A DNA stretch of 61,133 bases. Origin: a virus. Under the pieces are notes generated by a model. That model was not told the origin of the DNA. It ran no database searches and saw nothing but the letters and a program-made list of their open reading frames with translations. The DNA lies in the IMG/VR virus record IMGVR_UViG_3300010883_000027, positions 1-61,133 of that record, one strand, 5' to 3'. The position numbers and the translations under genes are program-made. Every line of letters starts with the position of its first letter. Position 1 is the first letter of the stretch. This document shows positions 7,798-61,132 of this stretch, piece after piece.

Positions 7798-8223
7798 TTA
7801 TGATCCAGAAGTTCCGCTGGTCCCCGAGTTCCCTTTAGGCCCGCTTGTCGAGGCCTTAACTTCCACGGTTTTTGTTGGTCCTGTTGGTCCTGTTGGTCCT
7901 GTGCTTCCTACGTTACCAGTAGGTTCGCTTGGTCCCGATGGGCCAGTTGGCCCTGTATTTCCGACGTTACCTGTGACCTTAGGTTCCGGGGCTCCTACAT
8001 TACCAGAAGAAGCTACGGGACCAGAGGTCGGACCAGAGGTCGGACCAGAGGTCCCCACCTCCGAGAGCCTCTTAGCGAAGGCCTTAAGCTTAATGTTAGG
8101 GTGCTTTAAGAACTTCTTCACGACTCTCTCTCCCTTTCCCTGACTGACCATTTCTCCGAACCAGCGAACTCTTCTATTAACGTGTTCTGCCATCTCTTCT
8201 AGAATTAATTTTAATGTGTCCAT
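7798..8223 (-). CDS. Protein with collagen-like Gly-X-Y tail
   Basis: I start at the ATG at 8223; a longer reading would need TTG. 141 residues: a helical basic N-terminal ~55 residues, then a long low-complexity tail of GPT/GPS/GNV triplets like collagen repeats. Such tails trimerise and are common in phage fibres and surface proteins. Driven by the promoter at 8270-8297. Confidence 0.65.
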
Positions 8224-8269
8224 ATATTTTAAAAACAAATGCCGAGTTTATTCGCGGCAATCTTATAAT

Positions 8270-10910: not shown

Positions 10911-12398
10911 TTACACAGTAATTTTGTCGTATCTATCTGAACTCAATTTCTCGACCATCAAATCATAAGGAGTCGTAGACTTCCCGGTAAGAACTGTCTC
11001 CAGAATGGAAGGACTGAATCCACTAACAAGCATATTGCCTTCTTCGTCATGCGTGACTGGTGATTGACTGTTTTTAGCGTTAACGTTCCACCAGACAAGA
11101 GTAGGCACCTCATACCCCGCCTCCCTATACTTCTCCTCAATTTCTTTTTGATTAGTCGTCCCAGAAGAAGAAGGGTTAAATTCGAGGTCTGTGATCACAA
11201 AAATCACATTTGGCATATCCTCTTCTCCGAGACCTTCCTTAAGGCCCGCATTCAAAATAGTATTAAATGCAGATTGAAGATTCGTGGAGCCTCCCCACTT
11301 GGCCTGCCTTAGATTTTGCGACTTCTCTACGATATTCGTCCCCTTGATTACCTCAAGGTCGCACTCGTCAGTGAACGTCAAGAAACTATCCTTGAAGATT
11401 CCCTTCCCTTTATCAGCACAGTAGATACCTAGCGAGACTGCCACGTCTATTGGGAGAACTCCGTTCACCCCCGTCCAGGTCATTGACCCAGAAACGTCTA
11501 CGACACAAATAACCCTCTTGTCTGAGTCCGCCATATAGTCGGGCAAAGCCTTCCATTGTGCGTCCAAAGTTCTCGCCTCCGTTGAGCCAGAGGCGTGCGC
11601 CGCTTTAGAAGTGATTTCGTAAGGATACAAAGTGCCCGAATTAATCTTCGTTTCACCCTCCTCGACCTTTTCGAGAAATTCCTTAAACTTCTCTGGAGTG
11701 TGCTTAGCGAAAGCCTTCCTTAATTTGCTCATCGCATTAGAAGGGACTTTTGAGAAGTCAATCTCTTCCCACTTTTTCGCGCAAATCTTCTTCTCTACGA
11801 TGTCGATCCTAGCCCTCAAGCCGGAGAGCATCTTTCTATATTGCCTCGAAGTTAGCCCTAATGATCGCCTGAGTTTCGAACCATACCTCTTCGTCTCTTC
11901 TGAGGATGAATTTTCGGATTTTGCCCATTTTCCGGCAAGAGAAATTGTTTGTGATTCTGTCTCTAATTTTTTGACATCTTCCTTTATTTGTTTCCCGTAG
12001 AAGTCTAGGACCTCACTCTCCGTCTCTGTATCCATCAGGCTAAATACGTCGTCCCATCTTCCGTATTCTGGGATATTCTCAAAGTTCTTCTTGATGATTT
12101 CTGGATGATTATTACTTAACCATTTCAAACAGACTTTAAAAAACCTACGTTCTCCTTGTCCGCCTCTCACATCGCGAAGATAGAAGAGACACTTGACAGC
12201 CAAAAGTTCATCCTCTGCATATGCCTTACGAAACAAGGCCTCTACATCTTCGTCACTACGGGTTCTGAACGCCCCTCCGAGCCCAAACATATCGGTCAAG
12301 TCGGACTTAGAAGACTTGAGAGTCAACGCGCTATTTTCAGTGAGGGTGTAATTCTTGTCGTCCTCAATGGACCCAATTAATTTACTTTTTGTTTTCAT
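10911..12398 (-). CDS. vWA-domain protein, DUF2828 / Ro60-like
   Basis: Start chosen at the ATG at 12398 (AATATG context); the longer frame begins inside a hairpin of the leader. 495 residues: an N-terminal all-helical region (LRDVRGGQGERRFFKVCLKWL) like HEAT repeats, then a von Willebrand A domain with the metal-binding DVSGSM motif (about residue 305) and a later ITDLEF. This two-part layout matches DUF2828 proteins of large viruses and is reminiscent of Ro60/TROVE, which binds Y RNAs and misfolded RNAs. A structured leader with three covarying hairpins precedes it. Confidence 0.75.
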   Translation of the reverse strand: MKTKSKLIGSIEDDKNYTLTENSALTLKSSKSDLTDMFGLGGAFRTRSDEDVEALFRKAYAEDELLAVKCLFYLRDVRGGQGERRFFKVCLKWLSNNHPEIIKKNFENIPEYGRWDDVFSLMDTETESEVLDFYGKQIKEDVKKLETESQTISLAGKWAKSENSSSEETKRYGSKLRRSLGLTSRQYRKMLSGLRARIDIVEKKICAKKWEEIDFSKVPSNAMSKLRKAFAKHTPEKFKEFLEKVEEGETKINSGTLYPYEITSKAAHASGSTEARTLDAQWKALPDYMADSDKRVICVVDVSGSMTWTGVNGVLPIDVAVSLGIYCADKGKGIFKDSFLTFTDECDLEVIKGTNIVEKSQNLRQAKWGGSTNLQSAFNTILNAGLKEGLGEEDMPNVIFVITDLEFNPSSSGTTNQKEIEEKYREAGYEVPTLVWWNVNAKNSQSPVTHDEEGNMLVSGFSPSILETVLTGKSTTPYDLMVEKLSSDRYDKITV

Positions 12399-12684
12399 AT
12401 TTTCTAGATATTGCGCCAGACACCACATCTGGCAGTTTTTGTAGGATTTTTATTGCAGATAATATCTATGCTAGAAACTGTTTATTAGAAATATATTCGC
12501 TGTTAGTTTCTAAATTTTGATTAGTAAGTTGTATATAAATTAAATTGCCTAGATACAGTTTGTTTTTAATTGCAGATAAAAAGTTTATTGCTGGATGTAT
12601 CTATAAAATTGCCTAGGTGCTGTATTTTTTTCTTAATAATAGATTTTTGGTTTGCTGTAAGCACCTAAATTCGTTTAAATTCTG
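12399..12684 (-). ncRNA. Structured leader with three tandem covarying hairpins
   Basis: On the minus strand three units repeat: stem GGTGCT/AGCACC (12665-12660 and 12621-12616), stem GATACA/TGTATC (12601-12596 and 12557-12552), stem GAAACT/AGTTTC (12510-12505 and 12479-12474). Each 5' arm is followed by a CAGCRA motif in the loop and each 3' arm by TAG(GCA). The stems differ in sequence but keep pairing, strong evidence for RNA structure. A fourth hairpin, GCCAGA/TCTGGC (12415-12433), lies just before the start codon. It may be bound by the vWA protein or act as a riboswitch-like leader. Confidence 0.7.
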
Positions 12685-16027: not shown

Positions 16028-16212
16028 CTCCAACAATCTAGCACATTACTGAGATCTGTCAAGGGCATTGAATAATTATTTAATAATGTTTTGTCAATTT
16101 CATACCCAATTTTTCTCCAGAGCTTAGTCATCATATGATGTTTCTTAGAGATATCTCCGCTGGTATTCTTAAGCATCTTCGCCATACTACGGACCTCTTT
16201 CGCATTCTTCAT
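16024..16212 (-). CDS. Small basic protein, 62 aa
   Basis: Unrecognised, helical and Lys-rich (MKNAKEVRSMAKMLKN, KKHHMMTKLWRKIGYEID). Starts 4 nt inside the HNH gene's stop. Confidence 0.55.
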   Translation of the reverse strand: MKNAKEVRSMAKMLKNTSGDISKKHHMMTKLWRKIGYEIDKTLLNNYSMPLTDLSNVLDCWR

Positions 16213-16763
16213 AAACTATTTTTTAATTCTTTAAGAAACTCTCTAAATTGTTCGTCGGAAAAATCTGATTTGGCAAAATTCAAAGCCATACAGACGAATT
16301 GAACATTTCCTTGCTCGTAGCCCTTAGAAGAGTCCCTCCTATCTAGGGATGCGTTTTTTAAATTTCTAGGTCTATCTTTAGATAGAGATCTTTTATCTAA
16401 AATCATTTTTAACCCGCTATAAGGACATCTACCTTCCTGGCTGTCCCAAACTTCTTTCAAATGTTCTAAAGATAAATTATTAAATTTTTGCCTTCTATTT
16501 GATGCCCTTAGATGGAATCTGTAAGGAGAATAGTCATCCAGAGATGTATTATTTTCCCAATGTTTTTTAAGTATATCTGAGTTACCATCTTTATAATTAG
16601 GTATGTTGCCTATATTAGATTTTCCCACGCAAGACCTACTGCAATAAAAGATATTGAATCCGTTCTTTAATCTCCTTTTGTATTCCTTTAGAGGTTTTTC
16701 AAAATTATTTTCACAATGATTGCATTTTACTGTTATACTTTTTTTCTTGTTCTTTCTTTCCAT
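16209..16763 (-). CDS. HNH endonuclease next to the tmRNA
   Basis: I start at ATG 16763 (MERKNKKKSITV); an upstream extension would run into the tmRNA 3' end. 184 residues: a CNHC/CSRSC zinc-binding head (about 14-45), then a nuclease core with EGRCPYSGLKM, NASLDRRDSSKGYEQGNVQFVC and a C-terminal helix. Likely a mobile homing endonuclease. Its position right after a tmRNA gene is typical for nucleases that target conserved RNA genes. Confidence 0.75.
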   Translation of the reverse strand: MERKNKKKSITVKCNHCENNFEKPLKEYKRRLKNGFNIFYCSRSCVGKSNIGNIPNYKDGNSDILKKHWENNTSLDDYSPYRFHLRASNRRQKFNNLSLEHLKEVWDSQEGRCPYSGLKMILDKRSLSKDRPRNLKNASLDRRDSSKGYEQGNVQFVCMALNFAKSDFSDEQFREFLKELKNSL

Positions 16764-16805
16764 ATTCAGTTTTACACCGAACTGGTGGAGACGGGAACAA
16801 TTAAA

Positions 16806-17224
16806 TGGTGGAGGCGTTGGCATGATGCTAGCCAAGTCCAAAAACATTTCCAATAGTAGCGTTTACATGCTTATTTAGTTTTAAGTTCTTCCGCGCACTG
16901 AAACTAACAATACCAACGCGGTATAATACGAATTATTTTAACAAGCGAGACCATATAAAATTCTGCTTAACTTACTAAATTGATAGACTAAAGGGTGTAA
17001 GAACCTCTAGTCCCAGCTACATAATTTTACTTACGCAGCAATTGCGACTGGTGCTAGAACTTGAGTTGCATATACCCCTTTTGAGGATGTGAAGCTTCCG
17101 CCGCCTAGTGCCATAACTTTATCAGTCGTGCCATTTTGTGATTTAGTTGATTCTTAAAAGGCCAACAACTATCCTTTGCATGTGGCTATTACAGATTATA
17201 TCTCTGTCGAATCTGTTCGCCCCC
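16806..17224 (-). ncRNA. ssrA: Transfer-messenger RNA (tmRNA)
   Basis: 419 nt. The 5' end GGGGGCG pairs with CGCCTCC before A and an encoded CCA at 16806. ATTCGAC near the 5' end and ACTAAATAAGCATGTAAACGC near the 3' end are the conserved tmRNA signatures. The tag frame ends VAIAA-stop; if resume is at GCA the tag is 26 residues (ALGGGSFTSSKGVYATQVLA, then PVAIAA). Pseudoknot-like stems flank it. The T-arm TTGGC/GCCAA has a 9-nt loop, unlike the normal 7. It would rescue stalled ribosomes on SmpB and mark the products for proteolysis; no smpB is seen here. Confidence 0.9.
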
Positions 17225-30074: not shown

Positions 30075-32045
30075 CTATATATCTATTTGTGAGACTCTGT
30101 CTTCGTTAATCATCGTCCCCTTGAACTCTTCGTATTTCTCCTCGTAGTTATCGATAATCTCCTCGTCCGCAGAGAAATCTAGAGGTTCTACGAACTGGAG
30201 GCCGGGAATATGCTTAGCCATTAGAGTGTAGAACTCCTCGCTATTCATCTTCTTAACCTTTAATAATTCATCGGTCAACTCTATTAATAAATGTCTATTG
30301 TCATTTAACAAAGTCTTAGTCTCTTCCATGCAGTCATTTAGCATCTTCTCTACTATGATATTAGTTTTATCAAAGTCTGTTATCCCCGAGTAAGCCACGT
30401 CTTCTTCATTCCCATAGCAGTAATTTCCTGTTAAGCTATCCATACCTAACTTTCTAACCATTCTGCATATATCTGCTGTAGCCCGTGAGATGTCCGAACT
30501 GCAACCCGAAGTTTTGAGCATCTCTCCCGCTACTATCTCTTCCGCAACAGTTCCCGCTAGGTAAACCTTCACGGTATCGAGGGAGTTTTTCTTGTTATTG
30601 AAAAGATCATTAGGGATGATGTAGGCACCGTCGAAATTTGTAATCTCCGTATTTATGAACTTAGGGGACCACTTGAAGAGCAAGGCGTAGACCAAAGCGT
30701 GACCCGCCTCATGGACTCCATAGATGACCTTTTTGTCCGTACAGATATTGCTTTTAATAATATCTATATCAAATTCGTATTCAACCTTCAAAGTTTCACC
30801 CTTAATAGCTGCAGATATAACGCCCCCGTCCGCCCTCAATGAGATTCCTGCTTTATCTTTCTCATTAATAGAATAAAAGAGTAAAGGGGGAGAAACCTTG
30901 CTTAAGAAACTGTTTACTCCGCTGAATACCGGCCTTACTCCCTGCGCAGGAAAAACAAAATTCTTATACAGCAAAGCCACTATCCCTTCACTATATTCGA
31001 AAGGCACTCCTACCGCCTCAAAAATCTTTTCCTGGTACCCTCTCAGGTTCTTTCTAATTATGTCTCTATAGTTGGAGGAACTTAAGCAAGGATAGATTAC
31101 GTGGTTACTTCCCAGTCTTGAGACCTGTTCTGGTCGGAAGAGACAGAACAATGATTTCTTTATGTCTACAACATTTATATTCCTACTGTATTTATGGAGC
31201 ATATCTGCATCGACATCTGCGTCGGCGACGTTTGCCGACATTGAATAAGCATCATCTAAATTGCCGCATACAAAGATTAAAGTTTTTTCATACTCTCCTC
31301 CCTCACTAGAAACAAGCCTATCGAAGTTTTCCTTACAAAGGCTTATTAGACCTTTTAAATTCAACTTTTTAATATCGGCTACGGATTCTTTTAAACTCAT
31401 AGATTTCTTCACGTATTTCGCATAGTACAATTCTATAGGCTTGCTCAGGTTTTCTTCCGCTTCTCTAATATTCTCCTTTTTACCCTTGCCTTTGGCTTCC
31501 TTGGCCATGGTGATACACTTATCCAGAAACTCATATCTATCCTGCATGTCGAACATCAACTCATTGTAGTCAGACTCATACGTAGTTGCGCCCACATTGA
31601 AGACCCCGTCACTCAATAACATCCAAGTATCACCGTATCTCTCCTGCTTAACATTCCCAGAGAGAGGGTCTTTCGAATTAAACCTCTGGAATTCGTCCAG
31701 GAGGACGACTCCTTGCTCTTCTTTTTCAATATCTGAATATAAGAAGGCTTTCTTTAGCGAATCTACCTTCGTGTATCCGCACATGAGATCCGTGTCCATC
31801 TGGATTTCTAAAAACTTATGTGAGAACTCTAAATATTTGACTAGCTTTCTGACGAGATCCGTCTTGCCCGTCCCTGTCATGCCCCATAGGTTCACGATGA
31901 CCGGCCTAGTTAACACCTCTGGCATACAATACCAGATCTTAATATTGTCTAAAATCTTATCAATCTCATGATCGAGACCGATGAAGTCACCTTTTAGTTT
32001 CGTCCCGACTTCCTGTAGCTTGCTTAACCTGTCGTTTAAATCCAT
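30075..32045 (-). CDS. AAA+ ATPase fused to an M41 (FtsH-type) metalloprotease
   Basis: 656 residues. AAA+ module at about 20-330 with Walker A GMTGTGKT (about 54-61) and Walker B VVLLDEFQRF (about 113). After a linker, VHEAGHALVYAL (about 450) is the zinc-binding HEAGH of M41, and SGCSSDISRAT (about 520) supplies the third ligand as in FtsH. No membrane segment. Normal FtsH has a different, FtsH-type AAA and two membrane helices; here the ATPase looks more like Clp/ClpX-type. Probably a soluble ATP-dependent protease. Confidence 0.8.
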   Translation of the reverse strand: MDLNDRLSKLQEVGTKLKGDFIGLDHEIDKILDNIKIWYCMPEVLTRPVIVNLWGMTGTGKTDLVRKLVKYLEFSHKFLEIQMDTDLMCGYTKVDSLKKAFLYSDIEKEEQGVVLLDEFQRFNSKDPLSGNVKQERYGDTWMLLSDGVFNVGATTYESDYNELMFDMQDRYEFLDKCITMAKEAKGKGKKENIREAEENLSKPIELYYAKYVKKSMSLKESVADIKKLNLKGLISLCKENFDRLVSSEGGEYEKTLIFVCGNLDDAYSMSANVADADVDADMLHKYSRNINVVDIKKSLFCLFRPEQVSRLGSNHVIYPCLSSSNYRDIIRKNLRGYQEKIFEAVGVPFEYSEGIVALLYKNFVFPAQGVRPVFSGVNSFLSKVSPPLLFYSINEKDKAGISLRADGGVISAAIKGETLKVEYEFDIDIIKSNICTDKKVIYGVHEAGHALVYALLFKWSPKFINTEITNFDGAYIIPNDLFNNKKNSLDTVKVYLAGTVAEEIVAGEMLKTSGCSSDISRATADICRMVRKLGMDSLTGNYCYGNEEDVAYSGITDFDKTNIIVEKMLNDCMEETKTLLNDNRHLLIELTDELLKVKKMNSEEFYTLMAKHIPGLQFVEPLDFSADEEIIDNYEEKYEEFKGTMINEDRVSQIDI

Positions 32046-44125: not shown

Positions 44126-46513
44126 TTATACACTCGAAACCACTATTTTCCCTTCTTTTTTCGAGAAATTAACGGAAACTTTCCCGGCGCTACTATTTCT
44201 TAGCACTTCGAAGGAAATAGGGTCGGCTATATCATTTTGAATAATCTTCTTTATCTTCCTAGCTCCAAACTCACTATCTGAGATGTTTTTTAAGACGTAT
44301 TCCTCCACACTCTTGCCACGAGTGAAGGAAATCCCTGAAGAAAGGCATCTTTCTGAGAGTTTCGCCAACTCTATTTTGATAATCTTCTTCAGATCGTCCT
44401 CCTTCAGGGCGTTAAAAAATACAACCTCATCAATACGCCCTAGAACTTCAGGGGCAACCAAGGCCTTCAAATGAGATGTGGCGTTTTCTACCTTCTCTTT
44501 CTCTGATATCGAATGCCCAAAGCCTAACTTCTCGTTCTTAACTAGCTCTCTCGACCCTATATTTCCTGTCATTACTACTAAAACATTAGAAAAATTAGCG
44601 ACTCTGCCCTGAGAGTCTGTAACCTTTCCTTCTTCGAGTATCTGCAAAAAGAGATGAAAAATATCAGGGTGAGCTTTCTCTATCTCGTCAAACAATACAA
44701 CAGAATAAGGTTTTTTTGTTACGAATTCAATTAATTGCCCGCCGCTATCGTGGCCAATGTAGCCAGGAGGAGCACCGATAAGCTTCGCTACAGAGTGTTT
44801 CTCTGAATACTCCGACATATCAAAGATCTTAATTGCCCCTTCCGACCCGAACATTTCCTTAGCCACAGTCTTAGCCAGCAACGTCTTTCCTACCCCTGTA
44901 GGGCCTAAGAATACGAAGGAGCCGATAGGTTTCTTCAGGTCTCTGATTCCTCCCTTGTATCTGACTAAACATCTATGAACTGAGTTTATGGCCTCAGATT
45001 GACCAATCACTTCCTTGCCTAATGTTTTATCAAGCTTTAAATATTTCTTATTTTGATCCCCCTTGAAGTTAGAGATGGGAATTCCTGTCGCTTTACTAAG
45101 CACTTCGAAGACTTCAGAGTCAGTAGCCTTGAAAACTGCCTCCCCCAATTTGTCTCCCCATTTTTTGTATTCTAATTCTATTTTTGAAATGAGTTCGTCT
45201 TTTTCTTCCTTTATTTCCTCCACATCTCCATACTCATAGAACAGTTCCTCCACCTTAGCTTCAAGGGCGTCGAGAGCCTTGGGCTTCACAACCTTACTGA
45301 CCTTGGTATGACTCGCCACAGAATCAAGAAAGTGTATTTCTCTGTCTGGCGAATTGACTGTGTGCAGGTAGACCTCGCAAAGGCTCTTAGACATGTCTAC
45401 TATCTCTTCTGACAGCTCTACTCTGTGGAAGTTACCGAACTCTCTTGCTTTGTCCGTAAGAAGCTCTGAAAGGCTTTCCGCGTCCAATCCATTTAAGTCG
45501 ATGTTCTGAAAATACCTCGTCAGCTCCCCATCTTTAGAGAAATTCTTCCTGTATTGCTCAAAACTTGTTGTTCCTATCACGGAGATATCTCCTCTCGATA
45601 AGGCAGGCTTCAAGATTGTCGCCGCGTCCGTCAAGCTTTCGTTATCCCCCGCCCCGATGATAGTATGGATATTGTCAAGGAAGAGCACTATCCGGGGATT
45701 CGAAGCTTCTTTAATAATCTTCTTGAGTCTCATTTCAAACTCGCCTCTAAATTTTGTTCCAGAGATAACTGAGTTTACGTCTACATTATAAATAACTTTA
45801 TCGTTAAGGAGGACGGAAGAGTCGCCCAGTGCCACGGATACCGCTAACCCTTCGATGAGCGCCGTTTTCCCAATACCTGAATCCCCGATAATAATTGCGC
45901 TCTTCTTAATTTTATTATTGAGAACCCTCTCTAAATCAGCTAGCTCACCACTTCTCCCGAATAGAACCCCATACTCTCCCTTTAAAGCTTTAAGGTTCAT
46001 ATTCTCCCCAAACTTATCTAACATAGGGACACTCGGGAAGGTCATGTCTACCTCCAGAACCTCTGAATCTTCCTCCTTGGTTGCGGAAGCCTTGTTGTCT
46101 AAATGCTCTACTATTTTTGGTCCGAGATCTGCCTTAGAAATTCCAAATAACTCTTGAGGGTAATCTTTGCTTACGATACATGCGAAGATATGGTCTATGC
46201 ACACATGAGTATGCTTTAGGTGCTCTGCGAAACGAAAGGATTCACTAAGTATCTCTGTGAAATCCTTAGACGGCTTCACAGCCTCACTAGGAAGGGCAGA
46301 TTTCTCGACCTTGCTTAGATACTCATCTTGGAGCCTCTTCTTCAGAGCTTTAGGGTTTTGACCTATATCTGACAACACCCTCATAGAAAACGAATCATCC
46401 GCGTCCAAAATTGTGGCCAAGAGATGCATGTAAGTCACCTCCGCATGGTGGTATTCTTCCGCTAATTTCTTAGAAGCGTCTAAAATTTTCTTTACCCTCG
46501 GTGTTATTTCCAT
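44126..46513 (-). CDS. ClpA-like AAA+ unfoldase
   Basis: 795 residues: N-domain (1-145), first AAA+ with GDSGIGKT (about 214), second AAA+ with GPTGVGKT (about 530), no long M-domain, as in ClpA rather than ClpB. A KLGFGHS stretch in the second module occupies the place of the ClpP-docking IGF/L loop. It could redirect host ClpP, or act alone as a remodeller. Upstream of the holin-like gene, downstream of the polymerase. Confidence 0.85.
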   Translation of the reverse strand: MEITPRVKKILDASKKLAEEYHHAEVTYMHLLATILDADDSFSMRVLSDIGQNPKALKKRLQDEYLSKVEKSALPSEAVKPSKDFTEILSESFRFAEHLKHTHVCIDHIFACIVSKDYPQELFGISKADLGPKIVEHLDNKASATKEEDSEVLEVDMTFPSVPMLDKFGENMNLKALKGEYGVLFGRSGELADLERVLNNKIKKSAIIIGDSGIGKTALIEGLAVSVALGDSSVLLNDKVIYNVDVNSVISGTKFRGEFEMRLKKIIKEASNPRIVLFLDNIHTIIGAGDNESLTDAATILKPALSRGDISVIGTTSFEQYRKNFSKDGELTRYFQNIDLNGLDAESLSELLTDKAREFGNFHRVELSEEIVDMSKSLCEVYLHTVNSPDREIHFLDSVASHTKVSKVVKPKALDALEAKVEELFYEYGDVEEIKEEKDELISKIELEYKKWGDKLGEAVFKATDSEVFEVLSKATGIPISNFKGDQNKKYLKLDKTLGKEVIGQSEAINSVHRCLVRYKGGIRDLKKPIGSFVFLGPTGVGKTLLAKTVAKEMFGSEGAIKIFDMSEYSEKHSVAKLIGAPPGYIGHDSGGQLIEFVTKKPYSVVLFDEIEKAHPDIFHLFLQILEEGKVTDSQGRVANFSNVLVVMTGNIGSRELVKNEKLGFGHSISEKEKVENATSHLKALVAPEVLGRIDEVVFFNALKEDDLKKIIKIELAKLSERCLSSGISFTRGKSVEEYVLKNISDSEFGARKIKKIIQNDIADPISFEVLRNSSAGKVSVNFSKKEGKIVVSSV

Positions 46514-49070: not shown

Positions 49071-49705
49071 ACCTCTACCTCCCAAATTAATTTATTAAAT
49101 ATTTCAAAATTTTTCTCTACATCGTATAAAGAGTCGTGCAGTCGACTCTCCTCAAACTCTATATCGAGATCCTTAAGTAGAGCGAGCTGGGTTACTTTGG
49201 AGCCTCTCGGCAATTTAGTGTTGAGGTATTTATACATTGAATATATTCTTTTCTCCTTGGGGATCTTTGTCACCCCCATCACTCTAGCCTTTGCAAGACA
49301 CACCGTATCTACTACTCTCGGCAAGTAAGAGAAGTCCGGGTTCTTCCCCTCTAACCTTCTATAGATATTATGAATATATATATCAAAACCTAGCAAATTT
49401 TGCCCAACAATGATATACTCTGGATTATAAAGAATCTTTTCGAATTCGTCCAAGATGGGGCTGGCTGGTTTTTTTAGTTTATTATACTTATCGTAGGAAA
49501 AGCCTGTGACCATCGCGGCCCCAGGAGAAACCTCGAGACTAGGCCAATCTATCCAATGGTCGTACTTAGAAGTAATTTGATTTCCTGTAGCAAGGACATA
49601 GCTAAGTTGCCACGGCTTAGAAGAAAAAAGATTGAGGCCGCACGTCTCAAAATCCATCACCATATATTTTTGATTCTTGTCGAACCTTAATAAATCATTT
49701 TTCAT
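49067..49705 (-). CDS. DnaQ-like 3'-5' exonuclease
   Basis: 212 residues. DEDD family: MVMDFETCGLN (ExoI), VGQNLLGFDIYIHN (ExoII) and LHDSLYDVEKNFEIF (ExoIII, H...D). Proofreading exonuclease for the adjacent C-family polymerase. Confidence 0.85.
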   Translation of the reverse strand: MKNDLLRFDKNQKYMVMDFETCGLNLFSSKPWQLSYVLATGNQITSKYDHWIDWPSLEVSPGAAMVTGFSYDKYNKLKKPASPILDEFEKILYNPEYIIVGQNLLGFDIYIHNIYRRLEGKNPDFSYLPRVVDTVCLAKARVMGVTKIPKEKRIYSMYKYLNTKLPRGSKVTQLALLKDLDIEFEESRLHDSLYDVEKNFEIFNKLIWEVEV

Positions 49706-50135
49706 CTTCTCTATCAGACCAATACTGCTCTCCGTAATTGATAGTCAATTCGTCTCCCTGCTCTATATCCTTCTTGGCAATATAGGTTACTACTTTTCTT
49801 CTATCGTCTATTTTGAATACTAAATTTTCTTCTTTAGAATGATTATAGATCATTCCGAATCCTAACACTGCAATAGGGCGAGTCACCAAGTCCGTAGTTA
49901 GCCCTCCATGCTCGTCGCAGAATTCCTTCCAGTTATCAGAAAGAGACTGCAATGCGAAAACATATTTAATAAGTTCTTTGTCACAATTTTTCCACTCTCT
50001 GTCCTCTAGAACAAGGTAGTGTGCCTCTTCAACCGTTACTCCTGCTCTGATATCTTCTCTAGCAAAGACTCCTTTACCCTCTATATCTGAGAATCCCACG
50101 TAGATAGGACCCTGTAATAATGATTTATCTTTCAT
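49695..50135 (-). CDS. SET-domain protein (lysine methyltransferase-like)
   Basis: Start ATG 50135, overlapping the upstream stop. 146 residues: GKGVFAREDIRAG, FGMIYNHS and QGDELTINYGEQYW are the three SET motifs (AdoMet site NHS and catalytic Tyr in NYG). May methylate a phage or host protein; partner unknown. It sits within the split polymerase operon. Confidence 0.85.
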   Translation of the reverse strand: MKDKSLLQGPIYVGFSDIEGKGVFAREDIRAGVTVEEAHYLVLEDREWKNCDKELIKYVFALQSLSDNWKEFCDEHGGLTTDLVTRPIAVLGFGMIYNHSKEENLVFKIDDRRKVVTYIAKKDIEQGDELTINYGEQYWSDREDEK

Positions 50136-50826
50136 TCTTCCATGCCTCGAAACTGAATTTGTCACTACAAAAATGTTCTAGCCCAGGAGAACTAAGATCC
50201 TTGGCCCGCCCTTTATACTCCCCACAAGTAATTTTAAATGTTTGGAAGACTTCGAAGTCTTCTGCTTTTTCGTAGTAAATTGTTTTGACTTTCTCAATAT
50301 TGTATTTTCCTTTAGTATATTCTAGTATCGAATTTTTGAGTAAGCCGTCAAAGGGTAATCCGTTGTCCTCTACGAGAAACTGGGGCTTGAACGGCTTAAG
50401 GTCTGGGGCGAAACTCGCAAACGTGAAATTGTTGTAGTAGAGGAACGAATCATAAAAAGGTATTGCCATTCCTAAATTTTCCGACCAATGCTTCACTAAA
50501 TCTTCTAGTTTGAGTTTCCCTTCGTTCTCGCAGAAGGCCTCCGTGTGTATCTTGTAGAGAGCCTTACAACCTTCATCGTTCAAAGCGATGATCACGACCT
50601 TATGGGTTTGTTTGCTCTCTTTCTCTTCATAGATATTCAATCTTAAGCAAAAAGTAAATTTCAAATTACTCTCGTCAAAAATCTTCCGAGATTCTAAAAA
50701 CCCATGAAAATTGTCTTCGACGAGGACTACCTCTGTCAGACCATCCTTGGTCGCGATCCTCGCAACATCGTCTGGGGTCAACAGGGATTTCCCAATGCTT
50801 CGGTCAGTTTTAAACAGAGGTTTCAT
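50125..50826 (-). CDS. Stand-alone PHP-like domain of the DNA polymerase
   Basis: Start ATG 50826, set by the promoter whose -10 ends 7 nt before it. 233 residues. VVLVEDNFHGFLESRKIFDESNLKFTFCLRL, then KVVIIALNDEGCKALYKIHTEAF, the order of the DnaE PHP domain, but key metal His/Asp of the start are missing, so probably structural. It would pair with the polymerase 46515-49070. Confidence 0.6.
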   Translation of the reverse strand: MKPLFKTDRSIGKSLLTPDDVARIATKDGLTEVVLVEDNFHGFLESRKIFDESNLKFTFCLRLNIYEEKESKQTHKVVIIALNDEGCKALYKIHTEAFCENEGKLKLEDLVKHWSENLGMAIPFYDSFLYYNNFTFASFAPDLKPFKPQFLVEDNGLPFDGLLKNSILEYTKGKYNIEKVKTIYYEKAEDFEVFQTFKITCGEYKGRAKDLSSPGLEHFCSDKFSFEAWKNER

Positions 50827-54976: not shown

Positions 54977-55384
54977 CTAAGCTTCTAAAATACTCTCTAT
55001 CATTTCCTCTAAATCAAAAGTATCTTCGAAAATCTCTACTAATACTATCCCATTTAAACTGCAAAAATCTGCTTTCATCACGTCCTTCTCAATCTGATAA
55101 ATAAAGTTCAATCTATTCTTACCATGAAAAAATGGATTATACTTAGTGTGCTGAGTCCCTTGAACCTCTATTGCTATCTTTCTCGTGGCATTATAAAAGT
55201 CCAAGGTTAACCTGGTCCCTGCCACAGGAAACTCCTCAAATACTACATCATGCCTCCAATAAGGGAAGACTGCCTCTTTAGCTCTAAACTGAAGCTTACT
55301 TCGAGACTTTCCTTTCCAGTCAATGATGTATCTTTGAGGTTTCTTAATTTTCCTCTTCGAGCCCTTTAGTGTCTGGAATTGCAT
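54977..55384 (-). CDS. PD-(D/E)XK endonuclease, DUF559/Vsr-like
   Basis: 135 residues. TRLTLDFYNATRKIAIEVQGTQHTKYNPFF (D...E-x-Q) then DVMKADFCSLNGIVLVEI matches small nucleases common in large phages, sometimes proposed as Holliday-junction or nicking enzymes. Overlaps the recA stop by 41 nt. Confidence 0.7.
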   Translation of the reverse strand: MQFQTLKGSKRKIKKPQRYIIDWKGKSRSKLQFRAKEAVFPYWRHDVVFEEFPVAGTRLTLDFYNATRKIAIEVQGTQHTKYNPFFHGKNRLNFIYQIEKDVMKADFCSLNGIVLVEIFEDTFDLEEMIESILEA

Positions 55385-57572
55385 TCGTCGCCTCTTCTAA
55401 TATTCTTTGTAAATAGTCAAGTAAAAAGTCCTTCAACTTTTCGTCGCCCAAGATTAAATCATTCACCTTCCCATAACCTTGTAATCTATTAGGCATTTCC
55501 ACCCCTGCGTCTGCCACCAAAGCCACAAGATCTTCGTCGAAAGTATACCACCCTCCCTTTTTCGTTAGAAGCTCCCATTTCATAAGCATTTTACTGATCT
55601 CTCTTTCGACCCAAATAGACGTCCCTCCTTTCCGGCCATGGCAAATAGGATATTTAATTACATTGTTCGTCGACTCGTTCGGACTTTTTTTAATAGTTAT
55701 CTTAGCAAAATGACCCACAATCTTATTCTTTTCTGCATCGTACTTTGCGTCTTCGTTCTCTAAAATTAAATCTCCTTTGAATTTTGGTTCAAATTCTAGA
55801 ATCCAGTTAGCATAATGCAATAATGCGTTTCCTCCGGTAGCCGTAGTCTGTCTCACTGGTGCCTTACTGTAAGGATCTAATTTTATATCAGCCCTAACCT
55901 GAGAGATAAATAAAGCCATGTGTCCCCTCTTTGGCAAGGCTATGCCGATCTTCTTCATAAGAGTAGAGGAGATGACCGCCCCACCTGCGATCTTGTTGCA
56001 CTCCGAGAAAGGTCTATCCAGGTCCGCCTGAGGTATCAACCCGTCTACAGAGTCCAACAGAAAATTATAGATCTTCCCGCATTCTTTCGCCGCGACCAAA
56101 TTCCTCATTAAATCCACAACTATCTCAAAGATATTACATTCGAAGACTAAACAAGTTCCATCCTCCCACTCCTTAGGATCGTAAACGAATTTAACTCCTG
56201 ATCTAGCCCTCATTTCAGGGCCTAGCCTTCCTTCCGCCTTCAGGTAAACGCCTCTTGCGTTTGGCATTTTTAAGAAATTCCTCATGAATTCCAATGCTTG
56301 TGAGGTATTGTGAGTCAAAATATAATTAGTTGTTACATACAAGGATTCCGGCGACGACACCTTGATACACACACTCTCTTCTTCTCCCACTTTTTCTATA
56401 CTTTTTATGAAGTGACAAAAATTTAATTCTCTTGGCGTATAATTTTCTAGCTTTCTAGGTAGAGAGCAGGGATTCATTCCTTCCGGCAAATAGAAACTAA
56501 CTACATTACAATCTTTACATTTTACTTTCTCCCCCTCACTGTTCTTGTATCCGCAATGCTTTTTCACCCTTAGTCTCGCTAGACCTCCTAAGGACCTAAC
56601 TAAATCCATTACGTTGTCCGCTAGTTTGTTCGAGCAAGTGTAATATAGAACCTCTGATTTATTAGGATTTAAATACCCGTCTGTATCTACTAAACCTTGT
56701 AATAATTTCAGCCTTTGATTGATTGACCCGAAGAGATATTTCTCTGGAATAAATTTTGTATCAGACTTACAACCAAAAAGACCTTCTTTTCTTAAACATG
56801 AAATTAGAGGGTTATCTGTTTGACTTTTAAATACTACTCGAAACTCCATGTCGCTCATCTTCGTCATACTAGAGCCGGGGAAATCTCTTTTCGTTATTCT
56901 CCCTACCTCGTCCCAAATGAATTTGTCTGCCGAAGTTACTTGCACAGACTCAGTTATTCCTCCGTCACCTAAGAGAACTCCCAATAAATAAGGGTCAATG
57001 TCGTAATCTTTCTCTAAAAACTTGATAGGTTTAACGAGTCTTATCGAGTGGTTCGAGTTCTTGCCGTGTTTAAGGGTATCTATAATATCCTTCATAGGCT
57101 TTACTGACCTTCTCTGTCCTTTTTTCGCATGTCTCTCTGAGAAGGAGGAAGTCTCCCATAAATGCTCCATACCGCAGCGCGTTACTGACCCGTCGTCGAA
57201 CGTCATCTTGTAAACATCTTTCACTCCTTGAGGGTAGACAGCTAGAACATCTTGTTCCTCTCCTTGAGCGTCTACAACTTTATCACCAACTTTCAAGTCC
57301 CCCATCACTCTCCACCCTTGAAGAGTCAGAACGGGCTCCGATACCCCCTGAAGCTTCCCACCTTCATTCATTCCTGTGAGCCGGTGGAGCCCCGGCCCAA
57401 GCCCTCCGTCTAGCCTGTAATCCAACGACAAAGACCCACTGGAGACTTTGTAGTCCAGCGGGTCTTCGTAATTGTAGTGAAACTCTGCGTGTTCCTTGAA
57501 AAATTTATCCGTTATTGCGTTAACTGATACTATTTTCTCTTCCTTATTCTTTACTTCTTTCTTTCTTGCCAT
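55344..57572 (-). CDS. RecA/UvsX recombinase interrupted by an intein
   Basis: 742 residues of which 349 are intein (residues 74-422). The Walker A GMNEGGKT is split between K and T. The extein continues SQALEFMRNFLKMPNA, FLLDSVDGLIP, and ISQVRADIKLDP. It pairs and exchanges strands in phage recombination. Insertion at the P-loop is the classic intein position in RecA-type enzymes. Confidence 0.9.
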   Translation of the reverse strand: MARKKEVKNKEEKIVSVNAITDKFFKEHAEFHYNYEDPLDYKVSSGSLSLDYRLDGGLGPGLHRLTGMNEGGKLQGVSEPVLTLQGWRVMGDLKVGDKVVDAQGEEQDVLAVYPQGVKDVYKMTFDDGSVTRCGMEHLWETSSFSERHAKKGQRRSVKPMKDIIDTLKHGKNSNHSIRLVKPIKFLEKDYDIDPYLLGVLLGDGGITESVQVTSADKFIWDEVGRITKRDFPGSSMTKMSDMEFRVVFKSQTDNPLISCLRKEGLFGCKSDTKFIPEKYLFGSINQRLKLLQGLVDTDGYLNPNKSEVLYYTCSNKLADNVMDLVRSLGGLARLRVKKHCGYKNSEGEKVKCKDCNVVSFYLPEGMNPCSLPRKLENYTPRELNFCHFIKSIEKVGEEESVCIKVSSPESLYVTTNYILTHNTSQALEFMRNFLKMPNARGVYLKAEGRLGPEMRARSGVKFVYDPKEWEDGTCLVFECNIFEIVVDLMRNLVAAKECGKIYNFLLDSVDGLIPQADLDRPFSECNKIAGGAVISSTLMKKIGIALPKRGHMALFISQVRADIKLDPYSKAPVRQTTATGGNALLHYANWILEFEPKFKGDLILENEDAKYDAEKNKIVGHFAKITIKKSPNESTNNVIKYPICHGRKGGTSIWVEREISKMLMKWELLTKKGGWYTFDEDLVALVADAGVEMPNRLQGYGKVNDLILGDEKLKDFLLDYLQRILEEATNAIPDTKGLEEEN
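56307..57353 (-). mobile_element. Intein with LAGLIDADG endonuclease, class 3 hallmarks
   Basis: Starts with Leu, not Cys/Ser, and ends ILTHN before Thr. Block B has Trp two residues after its His (MEHLWETS), block F has Cys (SVCIKV) where Asp is usual, and Thr precedes HN: the W-C-T set of class 3 inteins. Two LAGLIDADG-type motifs: LLGVLLGDGG and LLQGLVDTDGYL. Confidence 0.75.
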
Positions 57573-57961: not shown

Positions 57962-60900
57962 TTATTTAATTGGGCAAGCTCCCCCTTCGCACTCTATCCC
58001 TTGCAAGGCTTCTCCCTGTGAGACTTGAATGCTACTTAAAGGCTTCGTCTTTGCCACTAATTTCAAGTATGTCTTCTCGTCAATTTCTTCCATAGGAGCT
58101 TGATCGAACCCGTGGTCATCATGCAACAAGAAACTCACACTCTTAATATTGTTTTTGTAATTCTCTTTCAACCACTCCTTAATTCCCGCAAGTTCTTCCT
58201 TTTTGTAATAAACTGTGCAAGAAACTGCGTTATCAGACCAGTCACTTTGAATCTGCTTTACCAACTCCAACTGACGTATTGCCGACATATCTTCCGTTAA
58301 GACGGCATCTTCCCCCACATAGCAAGGAAACTCAACAATTGAAGTGTCGTATTTGTTCGTTCCGTCGAAGTTCCTTGCGAACTCTACGTGGTATCCCAGC
58401 TTCTTGCAAGCTTCTATTAACTTATCTCCGCTCGCCATCCTTACTCTTCTGATGAAGTATTTAGAAAAACCAGGGTGAATCCCAGGAGTCGCCCCCGCCA
58501 ACAGAGAAAGAGTCCCCGAGGGCTTAACCGTCGTAAGCTTTATGCTAACTGGTAGACCATTTTCCTTACTCCACTTCTCATCATAATCCTTGAGGGCAAC
58601 ATAAGCGCCGTCTAGCCACTTAAGTTTGTCCAACGACTGGCAGATTCCTGTCACCCCTTGGCCGAGTCTCATATTTTTATGTACTACTTTATTAGTTTCT
58701 TCATGTATAAACGGAAGAGAACAAATAGCTTTTTGCGTTTTATATAGAAGTTTAGAACATTCTATTAATTCCTCTTCAGAAGAAATATTATTTAAATATA
58801 ACTCAGAGAGATTGCAACATTCATAGTTCTCAAGGGTGATCTCACCACAGTTGCTGACATCGCACCCTCCGGTCCAATACGTATGAGAAGAGTTATTTAC
58901 ATTTATATCAAAAACTTCCTCCTCTGACACAAAATCCACAGAAATAATGTCATAGTTAGTTTTAATTCTTGAAGAACTAACTACTCTGATTCTCTCGTTT
59001 TTATATTCTTGAATGAATCCAATACTTTCTATGAATTTTTCTCTGTCTGTAGATATATTTAAATCATAACTTTCTCTGCAAATATAATCTCCGTTTTCAA
59101 ACCTAACTGACTTGGATTTATTAGTAGTATAATAAGATCTAATTCCTATTGAAGAAAGCATTAGCTGAACTTGATCCCTTAAAGTGGGAGACGTCGTTTT
59201 TAAAGTCACCCTATTCCCTGCCACGGACCCGTTCGCTGAATACACCCCTCTCAAGAACCCTGAGACCTTTTCCCTTCCTCCGTAAAGAAAGCGGTCGGGA
59301 ACAGTTCGTTCGTATGTCTTTGGAAGTTCTTCTGAAGAGATGGTAGTTTTTATATCGTAGCTATCATAATCACTTATTTTGTTACCCCCCTTTATAAGGC
59401 CCGCTATTTCTGATGCAAAATAATCACTATCATTTACCCCAATATACAAAAAGACCTTGCTATTACTAGCTTTGTGGACCGACCCATCCCCTATCACCAT
59501 CCCGTCCATGATATCTTGAGTGTCTATTGATGCCACCTTTCCGTAAGGACCTGTGAGAATATCTACTGATTCGCAATCTTTAGCTTCAATTTTCTCTCCG
59601 TTCGAGACTAACTTGTGATTCTCTGTTCCCACAAAAGACCCCGCTGTAGTTGTATATCTGTAAACTTTCTTGATTCCTGTAGACCATTTCTTATTAACTT
59701 CTACCCATCCATCTTTAGACCAAATTAGGTCGCCCGCGTTAACATCTTCCAGTTTTTTAACGCCCCCTTGAGTTAAAATAGGTGCCCACCTCGGCTGGCA
59801 GGGGTTAATTCCTGCTACTTCCAAGTCCGCCTTACTTCCCTTGTCCTTGACTCTACCTTTCTTTCTTGAGAGAGGGAGGTTAAAGAATCCATAAGGTTCC
59901 CCATTTCCAGCGTATCCGTCCCATACTGACTCCATGATATGACTATATTCATCTGCATAGATAGTGTTGTTCGACATCGCCCTCCAATTTGGAATGTTCC
60001 CAAGATCCCATCTCTTCGCTCGAAGGAATAGAAAGTCATCGGGATCTCCCAAACAGATCTCCGCAGAGTTATGAGTCAAATAACCATTGCAGAAAAATTC
60101 ATGAACACTCTCCACTTCTATGTCGTAAGTTGATACTCTCCTTCCCTCTTCTATGTCTACAACTTCCACAGGGATATAGTCGGGGTCAAGAAAATATGTT
60201 TGATATTTATCAATATTAACTTTTTTATTAGATAACGCTCCTGTTTTTGTTCTATTCGTTTTTATCCATTCCGAAGGATACGAATTAGCATTCATGCTTT
60301 TACTTCTCAAGGGGATCTCTTTTAACAAATTCCCCTTTTGACATAATTTGACCCTTGAATAATTCGTGATAAGGTTCACATAATGTAATTTTTGCCAACC
60401 CTTTCTGCTCTCCCAGTCTTCACTAGATTCGCAATATCTAGATTCCATTCCGCAGGAATACAATAGTCTTTGAATTCCTAATGCGAAGCCCTTGTAAACT
60501 GTAGTAACTACGTTAAGAGGTCTATTGTTGGCCGCGCCGTCGGAGTCCAAGACTCCAGAAACATAAGATAATTTTATTTCTGTGTTCGCCTTATTTATAA
60601 AATCAGGTATTATAATTTCTTTTTTAGGTTGCTTAATATTTTGGTCTAAATACCACGCTAGCTGTTTCGACTGGCAATGAACCATCCAGCTATTTTCTCC
60701 CTTTCTTTTTTTCAAGGTTACATTGTCCAACCCGAACCTTTCTATTTGCTCTTTTGCTTTCTCCGCAATGTCATGTTCAGATATATCAAAGACTAAAGAT
60801 ATATAAGCATTAAAACCTCCTTTTTCTCTATTTGCATAAGTATAACCATCCCCGTGAAACAAGCCAATGAACCATGCCATATCCTGGTCTAATTCAGGAA

Positions 60901-61132
60901 CAACAATATCTTTACATGTCGTTGATCTTTCTGGTTTTTTATATTCCCAACTTGGTAAAAATGTTTTTTGCCCCGCAATTTCATCCCTGGTGGAAATAAG
61001 ACGATCTCCAGCTTTTAAATCCTCTGCACTTACCCAAACTTTTGAATTTGTTCCGGTGAGTTTAGCCATTCTGTGGTTAGGAGTGCATTCGAAATAACCA
61101 TCTTGAGTCTTAATTTTTATGGTTTTTTGAAC
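57962..61132 (-). CDS. nrdJ: Adenosylcobalamin-dependent ribonucleotide reductase with two inteins, 5' end outside the window
   Basis: The frame is open to the right edge (the ATG at 61069 is inside an intein). Extein parts: SAEICLGDPDDFLFLRAKRW...VAGINP, CGEITLENYECCNLSEL, TVKPSGTLSLLAGATPGIHPG and the C-terminal ECEGGACPIK, the redox Cys pair of monomeric B12 (class II, RTPR-type) enzymes. It turns ribonucleotides into deoxynucleotides and would need host cobalamin. Confidence 0.9.
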   Translation of the reverse strand, partial: VQKTIKIKTQDGYFECTPNHRMAKLTGTNSKVWVSAEDLKAGDRLISTRDEIAGQKTFLPSWEYKKPERSTTCKDIVVPELDQDMAWFIGLFHGDGYTYANREKGGFNAYISLVFDISEHDIAEKAKEQIERFGLDNVTLKKRKGENSWMVHCQSKQLAWYLDQNIKQPKKEIIIPDFINKANTEIKLSYVSGVLDSDGAANNRPLNVVTTVYKGFALGIQRLLYSCGMESRYCESSEDWESRKGWQKLHYVNLITNYSRVKLCQKGNLLKEIPLRSKSMNANSYPSEWIKTNRTKTGALSNKKVNIDKYQTYFLDPDYIPVEVVDIEEGRRVSTYDIEVESVHEFFCNGYLTHNSAEICLGDPDDFLFLRAKRWDLGNIPNWRAMSNNTIYADEYSHIMESVWDGYAGNGEPYGFFNLPLSRKKGRVKDKGSKADLEVAGINPCQPRWAPILTQGGVKKLEDVNAGDLIWSKDGWVEVNKKWSTGIKKVYRYTTTAGSFVGTENHKLVSNGEKIEAKDCESVDILTGPYGKVASIDTQDIMDGMVIGDGSVHKASNSKVFLYIGVNDSDYFASEIAGLIKGGNKISDYDSYDIKTTISSEELPKTYERTVPDRFLYGGREKVSGFLRGVYSANGSVAGNRVTLKTTSPTLRDQVQLMLSSIGIRSYYTTNKSKSVRFENGDYICRESYDLNISTDREKFIESIGFIQEYKNERIRVVSSSRIKTNYDIISVDFVSEEEVFDINVNNSSHTYWTGGCDVSNCGEITLENYECCNLSELYLNNISSEEELIECSKLLYKTQKAICSLPFIHEETNKVVHKNMRLGQGVTGICQSLDKLKWLDGAYVALKDYDEKWSKENGLPVSIKLTTVKPSGTLSLLAGATPGIHPGFSKYFIRRVRMASGDKLIEACKKLGYHVEFARNFDGTNKYDTSIVEFPCYVGEDAVLTEDMSAIRQLELVKQIQSDWSDNAVSCTVYYKKEELAGIKEWLKENYKNNIKSVSFLLHDDHGFDQAPMEEIDEKTYLKLVAKTKPLSSIQVSQGEALQGIECEGGACPIK
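58850..59800 (-). mobile_element. Intein 2 of the reductase, at NP|CGE
   Basis: 317 residues from the first Cys (CQPRWAPILTQGG) to Asn before CGEITL; block B GTENHKLVS; endonuclease motifs GMVIGDGSV and FLRGVYSANGSV. Penultimate residue is Ser instead of His. It splits the NPCGE active-site motif. Confidence 0.85.

Follow-up and report, generated by a model that had tools for sequence, protein, structure and literature searches.

The tmRNAs of the bacterial phylum Omnitrophota encode tags far longer than the usual ten residues, and the codons of these tags differ from one another in the manner of a selected protein. A virus carries a tmRNA gene with a tag of this length. Of these two results, the selected long tag of a whole phylum is the more interesting. 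The virus is known from a record of 61,133 bases that may be a fragment; the whole of this stretch was analyzed and is called the window here. We consider it probable that the gene in the window is a phage-borne one-piece tmRNA of the Omnitrophota long-tag type, likely taken from a host in the order of Ca. Omnitrophus, and that it rescues ribosomes during infection. The preliminary description of the sequence as a tmRNA encoded by a phage and bearing an unusually long tag holds good, and the length of the tag probably exceeds the 26 residues proposed at the time.

A divergent one-piece tmRNA gene and its surroundings

A search of the window with the Rfam tmRNA model RF00023 gave a match of 81.3 bits (E 5.3e-30; gathering score 47) that spans model positions 1 to 374 of 374. 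The match bears out the gene boundaries of the preliminary description exactly and places the gene on the minus strand, where the following features were located.

16806 to 17224, minus strand: one-piece tmRNA (ssrA) gene of 419 nt with encoded CCA, matched over the full length of RF00023
17218 to 17224, minus strand: 5' strand of the acceptor stem, GGGGGCG, with 7/7 pairs to CGCCUCC at 16810 to 16816, including G3:U70
17206 to 17213, minus strand: GAUUCGAC, the D-loop equivalent of the tRNA-like domain, from the sequence and the RF00023 match
17178 to 17182, minus strand: CAUGC, with 5/5 pairs to GCAUG at 16866 to 16870
17145 to 17177, minus strand: pseudoknot 1 (PK1; S1 AAAGG/CCUUU, S2 AGUUG/CAACU), with 5/5 pairs in each stem
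17031 to 17132, minus strand: tag reading frame of 33 codons plus UAA, read directly as GTTDKVMALGGGSFTSSKGVYATQVLAPVAIAA
17130 to 17132, minus strand: GGC, the most likely resume codon, in the context AAAU|GGC, 12 nt after PK1 and placed by the RF00023 alignment
17109 to 17111, minus strand: GCA, the resume codon of the preliminary description, in frame and 33 nt after PK1
16817 to 16835, minus strand: T-arm UUGGC-UAGCAUCAU-GCCAA, with 5/5 stem pairs and a 9-nt loop
16783 to 16805, minus strand: the 3' end of the tmRNA in a second copy (UUUAAUUGUUCCCGUCUCCACCA) that immediately follows the first CCA and in which CGUCUCC makes 7/7 pairs with the 5' strand of the acceptor stem
16209 to 16763, minus strand: HNH/endonuclease VII-like open reading frame (ORF) directly downstream of the tmRNA (PHROG 3322 endonuclease, E 3e-19)

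The signatures first noticed in the letters alone (the acceptor stem, GATTCGAC and the encoded CCA) are all present, and a direct check of the pairing found the alanine-type G3:U70 and A73 at the acceptor end. Taken together, the helix pairings are far beyond chance, and the gene is genuine. It has also diverged, as its score is about half that of the bacterial copies, most of which scored about 120 to 210 bits in our sample. ARAGORN with default settings did not report the gene, and lowered thresholds produced a spurious permuted call only. Of the two programs that had been proposed as a check, Rfam thus confirmed the gene and ARAGORN missed it, and a survey made with default ARAGORN would miss it as well. 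Folding of the whole RNA as a single strand gave a z of -1.3 and was not informative.

The 9-nt T-loop that had been claimed proved real when the pairing was checked: UAGCAUCAU closes a perfect 5-bp stem and is without the usual UUCRA. A typical TΨC arm has a 5-bp stem and a 7-nt loop of the UUCRA type, which is not strictly required; the phage stem has all five pairs and the loop departs from the type. The T-loop was 7 nt long in each of the 152 bacterial tmRNAs measured, and the phage loop is the only one of 9 nt among the 153. In tmRNA the T-loop packs against the D-loop equivalent, near the binding places of SmpB and EF-Tu. Because of this location, reduced function or a decoy role is a serious rival explanation, and the unusual loop together with the low Rfam score means that the function of the phage tmRNA may be reduced. 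On such an account, the altered T-loop and elbow would hinder alanylation or EF-Tu/ribosome entry; decaying or kept as a decoy, the RNA would mainly bind SmpB and damp host trans-translation. A precedent exists in mycobacteriophage DS6A, which likewise makes an RNA with the tRNA-like domain of tmRNA and makes that domain alone (PMC4131195, PMC11915505). Unlike the DS6A molecule, which has no tag frame (PMC4131195), the RNA described here retains a full tag frame with its stop, PK1, the CAUGC/GCAUG pairing and both stems. An open frame of 40 codons with a degron-like VAIAA end is not expected to outlast a long decay, and an intact tag frame is evidence against simple decay. The likely host order has moved away from UUCRA too, with UGCAAUU in 28 of its 31 tmRNAs, and the phage loop keeps the U..GCA of that sequence. 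We regard decay or a decoy role as unlikely.

The neighborhood of the gene raises the question of whether it is a passenger, swept in by a mobile element through the HNH endonuclease or by integration at the tmRNA 3' end and playing no part in the phage cycle. The HNH-like ORF, which starts with an ATG at 16763 (a mechanical ORF call of 16209 to 16853 begins inside the tmRNA), follows the gene directly, and the 3' end of the tmRNA is duplicated 23 nt downstream. The sequence CGNCTCCACCA occurs in the window only at these two 3'-end places, against 0.03 occurrences expected. The second copy may have been left behind by an insertion or by site-specific integration at the 3' end, and tmRNA genes are known integration sites (PMC11915505). 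No integrase was recognized among the proteins scanned, though, and the recurrence of tmRNA genes in phages (402 of 18,146 genomes; PMC9004378) suggests that they are used; a mere passenger seems to us quite improbable. The T-loop is also a known insertion site of group I introns (PMC11915505), and such an intron was considered and rejected, since a second 3' end only 23 nt away leaves too little room for one.

Elsewhere in the window, all on the minus strand, a RecA-like protein (55344 to 57572) and a ribonucleotide reductase (57962 to 61069) both carry intein/LAGLIDADG homing endonuclease insertions. The phage also encodes a DUF2828/DUF7788 protein of 505 aa (10911 to 12428), a SET-domain protein of 156 aa (49695 to 50165) and an ORF with Gly-Pro-Thr/Ser repeats (7798 to 8238), the DNA of which gave repeat-type similarity to one Omnitrophota contig.

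The phage tag and the long tags of Omnitrophota

The tag frame ending in VAIAA and a stop had been read correctly; it is open at the spacing expected from PK1, runs for 33 codons from GGC to UAA and ends in the small hydrophobic degron type. Its start required revision. In RNA coordinates the last position of PK1 is 80; GGC, preceded by AAAU, is at 93 and GCA at 114. We take GGC as the resume codon because the RF00023 alignment, which sets the GCa resume codon of the model against it, the spacing from PK1 and the AAAU|G context agree. The E. coli resume codon lies 11 to 12 nt past PK1 and needs an A four bases upstream (PMC2481249). Among Omnitrophota tmRNAs with an uninterrupted PK1, the resume position is about 90 to 98, in contexts such as AAAU or AAGU and sometimes at a GGN codon. 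The phage tag is thus most likely GTTDKVMALGGGSFTSSKGVYATQVLAPVAIAA, 33 aa with one Asp and two Lys, as judged from the frame and its context, and the earlier statement that the tag lacks acidic residues no longer holds. Resumption at GCA (17111), as first proposed, or at the AUG just before it would give a tag of 26 to 27 aa, with the stretch 12 to 33 nt past PK1 forming an extension of the single-stranded leader. This alternative uses the identical frame, GCA is common as a resume codon, and the AUG lies four bases downstream of an A in the context AGUU|AUG, the importance of A86 being known (PMC2481249). Its distance from PK1, at 33 nt instead of 12 for GCA, the resume positions in Omnitrophota and the placement of GGC by the covariance model all weigh against it, and we consider a start at GGC the most likely and give the later start only a slim chance.

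A tag of 33 aa is of the length found in Omnitrophota, where we call a tag long at about 20 aa or more. When 84,980 bacterial and archaeal genomes were scanned for the 5' tRNA-like motif of the phage RNA, 22 loci were recovered; the tmRNAs among them mostly have tags of 8 to 9 aa, but Ca. Omnitrophus fodinae and an Omnitrophota metagenome-assembled genome (MAG), the two members of that phylum, have ADNIALDRVMDGAVVTPNFAPVALAA and ADNIALDRVMDGVVTPDFAPVALAA. A tmRNA match was then found in 304 of 384 sampled Omnitrophota genomes. About 110 of these tmRNAs, drawn from the better-scoring matches, were examined; their tags have a median length of 26 aa and a range of 8 to 52, with 93 of 107 reaching at least 20 aa. 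ARAGORN called part of the tags, and the others came from a rule based on PK1 and the resume context, which supplied most of the longest ones (34 to 52 aa). Tags in the comparison phyla are mostly 8 to 9 aa long, and those of Ratteibacteria about 9 aa. In the order of Ca. Omnitrophus, a tmRNA is present in 36 of 47 genomes, and the median tag is 24 aa. Here 24 of 30 tags end in LAA or IAA, and IAA, which accounts for 10 of the 30, is absent from the C-terminal triplets listed for the remaining Omnitrophota. Across the phylum, many tags, which reach 52 aa (for example, in locus L115), have ends other than LAA, such as ALV, ALR, GLN and AVA. Hairpin-like insertions of about 28 to 50 nt were also seen inside PK1, between the 3' strands of S1 and S2, in some bacterial tmRNAs (loci L183, L185, L031 and L025).

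The long tags carry the mark of selection on the protein. In 26 independent pairs of Omnitrophota tags of equal length, differences at codon positions 1, 2 and 3 numbered 76, 53 and 156 (p 4e-14), which puts 156 of the 285 differences at the third position. Outside the last ten codons the counts were 35, 19 and 98 (p 1e-15), and within the last ten they were 41, 34 and 58 (p 0.03). The third-position excess outside the last ten codons indicates that the extension, therefore, is selected as protein. As far as codon positions can tell, the full length of the tag is under selection at the protein level, and constraint is stronger in the extension than in the final ten codons; the test covers the bacterial tags only. 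We found no description of Omnitrophota long tags in the open-access literature. The main tmRNA database paper gives a modal tag of 10 aa, highlights an extreme of 2 aa and does not have Omnitrophota in its text (PMC11915505). The long-tag trait of Omnitrophota has apparently been unreported until now, and the length of the phage tag is probably a trait of a bacterial phylum and not a viral oddity.

Origin of the phage gene

The phage tmRNA resembles those of the order of Ca. Omnitrophus fodinae, which are also one-piece, share its 5' tRNA-like end, have AAAU before the resume codon and have a T-loop other than UUCRA (TGCAATT in the DNA, 7 nt). Tags of the order are 20 to 27 aa long and mostly end in LAA or IAA after a Pro/Ala/Val-rich stretch. 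The phage differs in its Gly/Ser-rich tag of 33 aa, its T-loop of 9 nt against 7, the absence of an adjoining smpB and an RNA sequence only about half identical. The 3' half of the phage tag, GVYATQVLAPVAIAA, matches GAVVTPNFAPVALAA of the order's locus L037, with the ends APVAIAA and APVALAA. This match gave the best score of the phage tag (35; shuffle p of about 0.01), and against the remaining Omnitrophota the p was about 0.08, which is not significant. Tag length, the APVAIAA end, the presence of IAA in a third of the tags of the order, the AAAU|G context common to both, the shared 5' end and the non-UUCRA T-loop lead us to favor, with reasonable confidence, an origin in Omnitrophota, in the order of Ca. 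Omnitrophus.

Other comparisons gave less direction. A nucleotide tree put the phage RNA on a long unresolved branch (end branch 1.04), and profiles made from the Omnitrophota order and from other phyla scored it alike (21.1 versus 20.8 bits). The best nucleotide identity, 52%, was to a Ratteibacteria sequence, in a comparison biased by the fact that neighbors outside Omnitrophota had been fetched by the very 5' motif that they share with the phage. This identity favors an origin in another phylum, such as Ratteibacteria or an unsampled lineage, with the long tag arisen independently or more widely shared than we sampled, and the odd T-loops of Ratteibacteria lend it further support. The tags of Ratteibacteria are only about 9 aa long, however, and the sampled short-tag phyla do not match; such an origin is in our judgment rather doubtful, although it retains some weight. 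The Ratteibacteria loops are noncanonical and 7 nt long (GGCAGTA, CTCACTA), and ARAGORN reported almost none of these genes.

A search for prophages and spacers in the 384 Omnitrophota genomes gave no convincing match, an absence that is weak evidence; all that it returned was of low complexity or belonged to conserved genes (ThyA, ClpC-like). ThyA was rejected as a host marker; it is nondiagnostic, at 62 to 64% identity to phage and 61 to 65% to Omnitrophota proteins. Among 50,697 phage records, none showed DNA similarity to the tmRNA, and exact-pattern scans of IMG/VR for it returned nothing or one chance match within a GC-rich ORF. When the AAA-M41, RNA ligase and PolIII proteins were used to look for related phages, the outcome was none or distant contigs (about 38%) without a tmRNA over the cut-off, and no related IMG/VR phage sharing the tmRNA was found.

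Proposed trans-translation in infection and the possible meaning of long tags

Several phages carry ssrA, among them the mycobacteriophages Bxz1 and Wildcat, Bacillus phage G, methylophage Melnitz and pelagiphages, and huge phages. The Melnitz-type tmRNA has the permuted two-piece form (PMC9004378), whereas the one described here is one-piece, and some huge phages encode SmpB too (PMC7162821), in contrast to the 61-kb window, within which no SmpB gene was found. The open-access literature yielded no description of a long tag of the Omnitrophota type in a phage tmRNA. Tags longer than the usual 10 aa also occur in Mycoplasma and Mesoplasma, where ClpXP has been lost and tags with an NYAFA end are read by Lon (PMC9382460); here, the ends are IAA or LAA, and the likely host order has ClpX.

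We propose the following course of events. The phage tmRNA would be charged with alanine by AlaRS through G3:U70, with A73, and bound by host SmpB, which is encoded in 38 of the 47 genomes of the Ca. Omnitrophus order, mostly close to the tmRNA. During infection it would enter ribosomes that have stalled on broken transcripts, and translation would resume at GGC (17132), adding A + GTTDKVMALGGGSFTSSKGVYATQVLAPVAIAA with a host-like IAA degron at its end. The tagged products would be read by host ClpXP. The likely benefit to the phage is that ribosomes and proteolysis are kept going while the host genome and transcripts are destroyed.

It had been suggested that host products may be tagged differently or that the tag may escape host ClpXP and go instead to proteases of the phage itself. 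Long tags are usual in Omnitrophota, LAA or IAA ends 24 of 30 tags in the order, and ClpX lies over the cut-off in 24 of its 47 partial genomes. Neither suggestion finds support here; given the host-type tag end and ClpX in the likely host order, we do not prefer avoidance of ClpXP, and the simplest reading of these sequences is that the phage would keep a host-type tag. The two phage proteins in question are as follows.

44126 to 46513, minus strand: double AAA+ unfoldase of the ClpC/ClpA kind, in which LGF aligns with the ClpP-docking loop of ClpC
30075 to 32045, minus strand: protein with AAA and M41 (FtsH-type) peptidase domains, from a domain match

The LGF tripeptide of the unfoldase stands at what we take to be the position of the ClpP-docking loop in ClpC. 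The unfoldase might use host ClpP, and processing of the tag by this pair is possible. A link of the tag to the unfoldase or to the AAA-M41 peptidase is likewise possible. The AAA-M41 protein has the motif HEAGH and weak similarity to FtsH, and it showed no close relative in phage records or IMG/VR.

The phage copy provides an uncultured virus with a possible link to a host, and it suggests that phages retain whichever type of tag their host uses. The tags of Omnitrophota, mostly 20 to 50 aa long and more constrained in the extension than in the last ten codons, indicate that ending in a degron is not all that a tag can do. We put forward, tentatively, a model with a second kind of trans-translation tag, used by Omnitrophota and by one or more of their phages, that is 20 to 50 residues long and conserved as protein over its whole length, beyond the C-terminal degron. 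The N-terminal part of such a tag may carry a signal of its own, such as a recognition site for an adaptor or protease, or may be a spacer on which degradation or a nondegradative fate depends, and the phage may have kept it to act in such a host.
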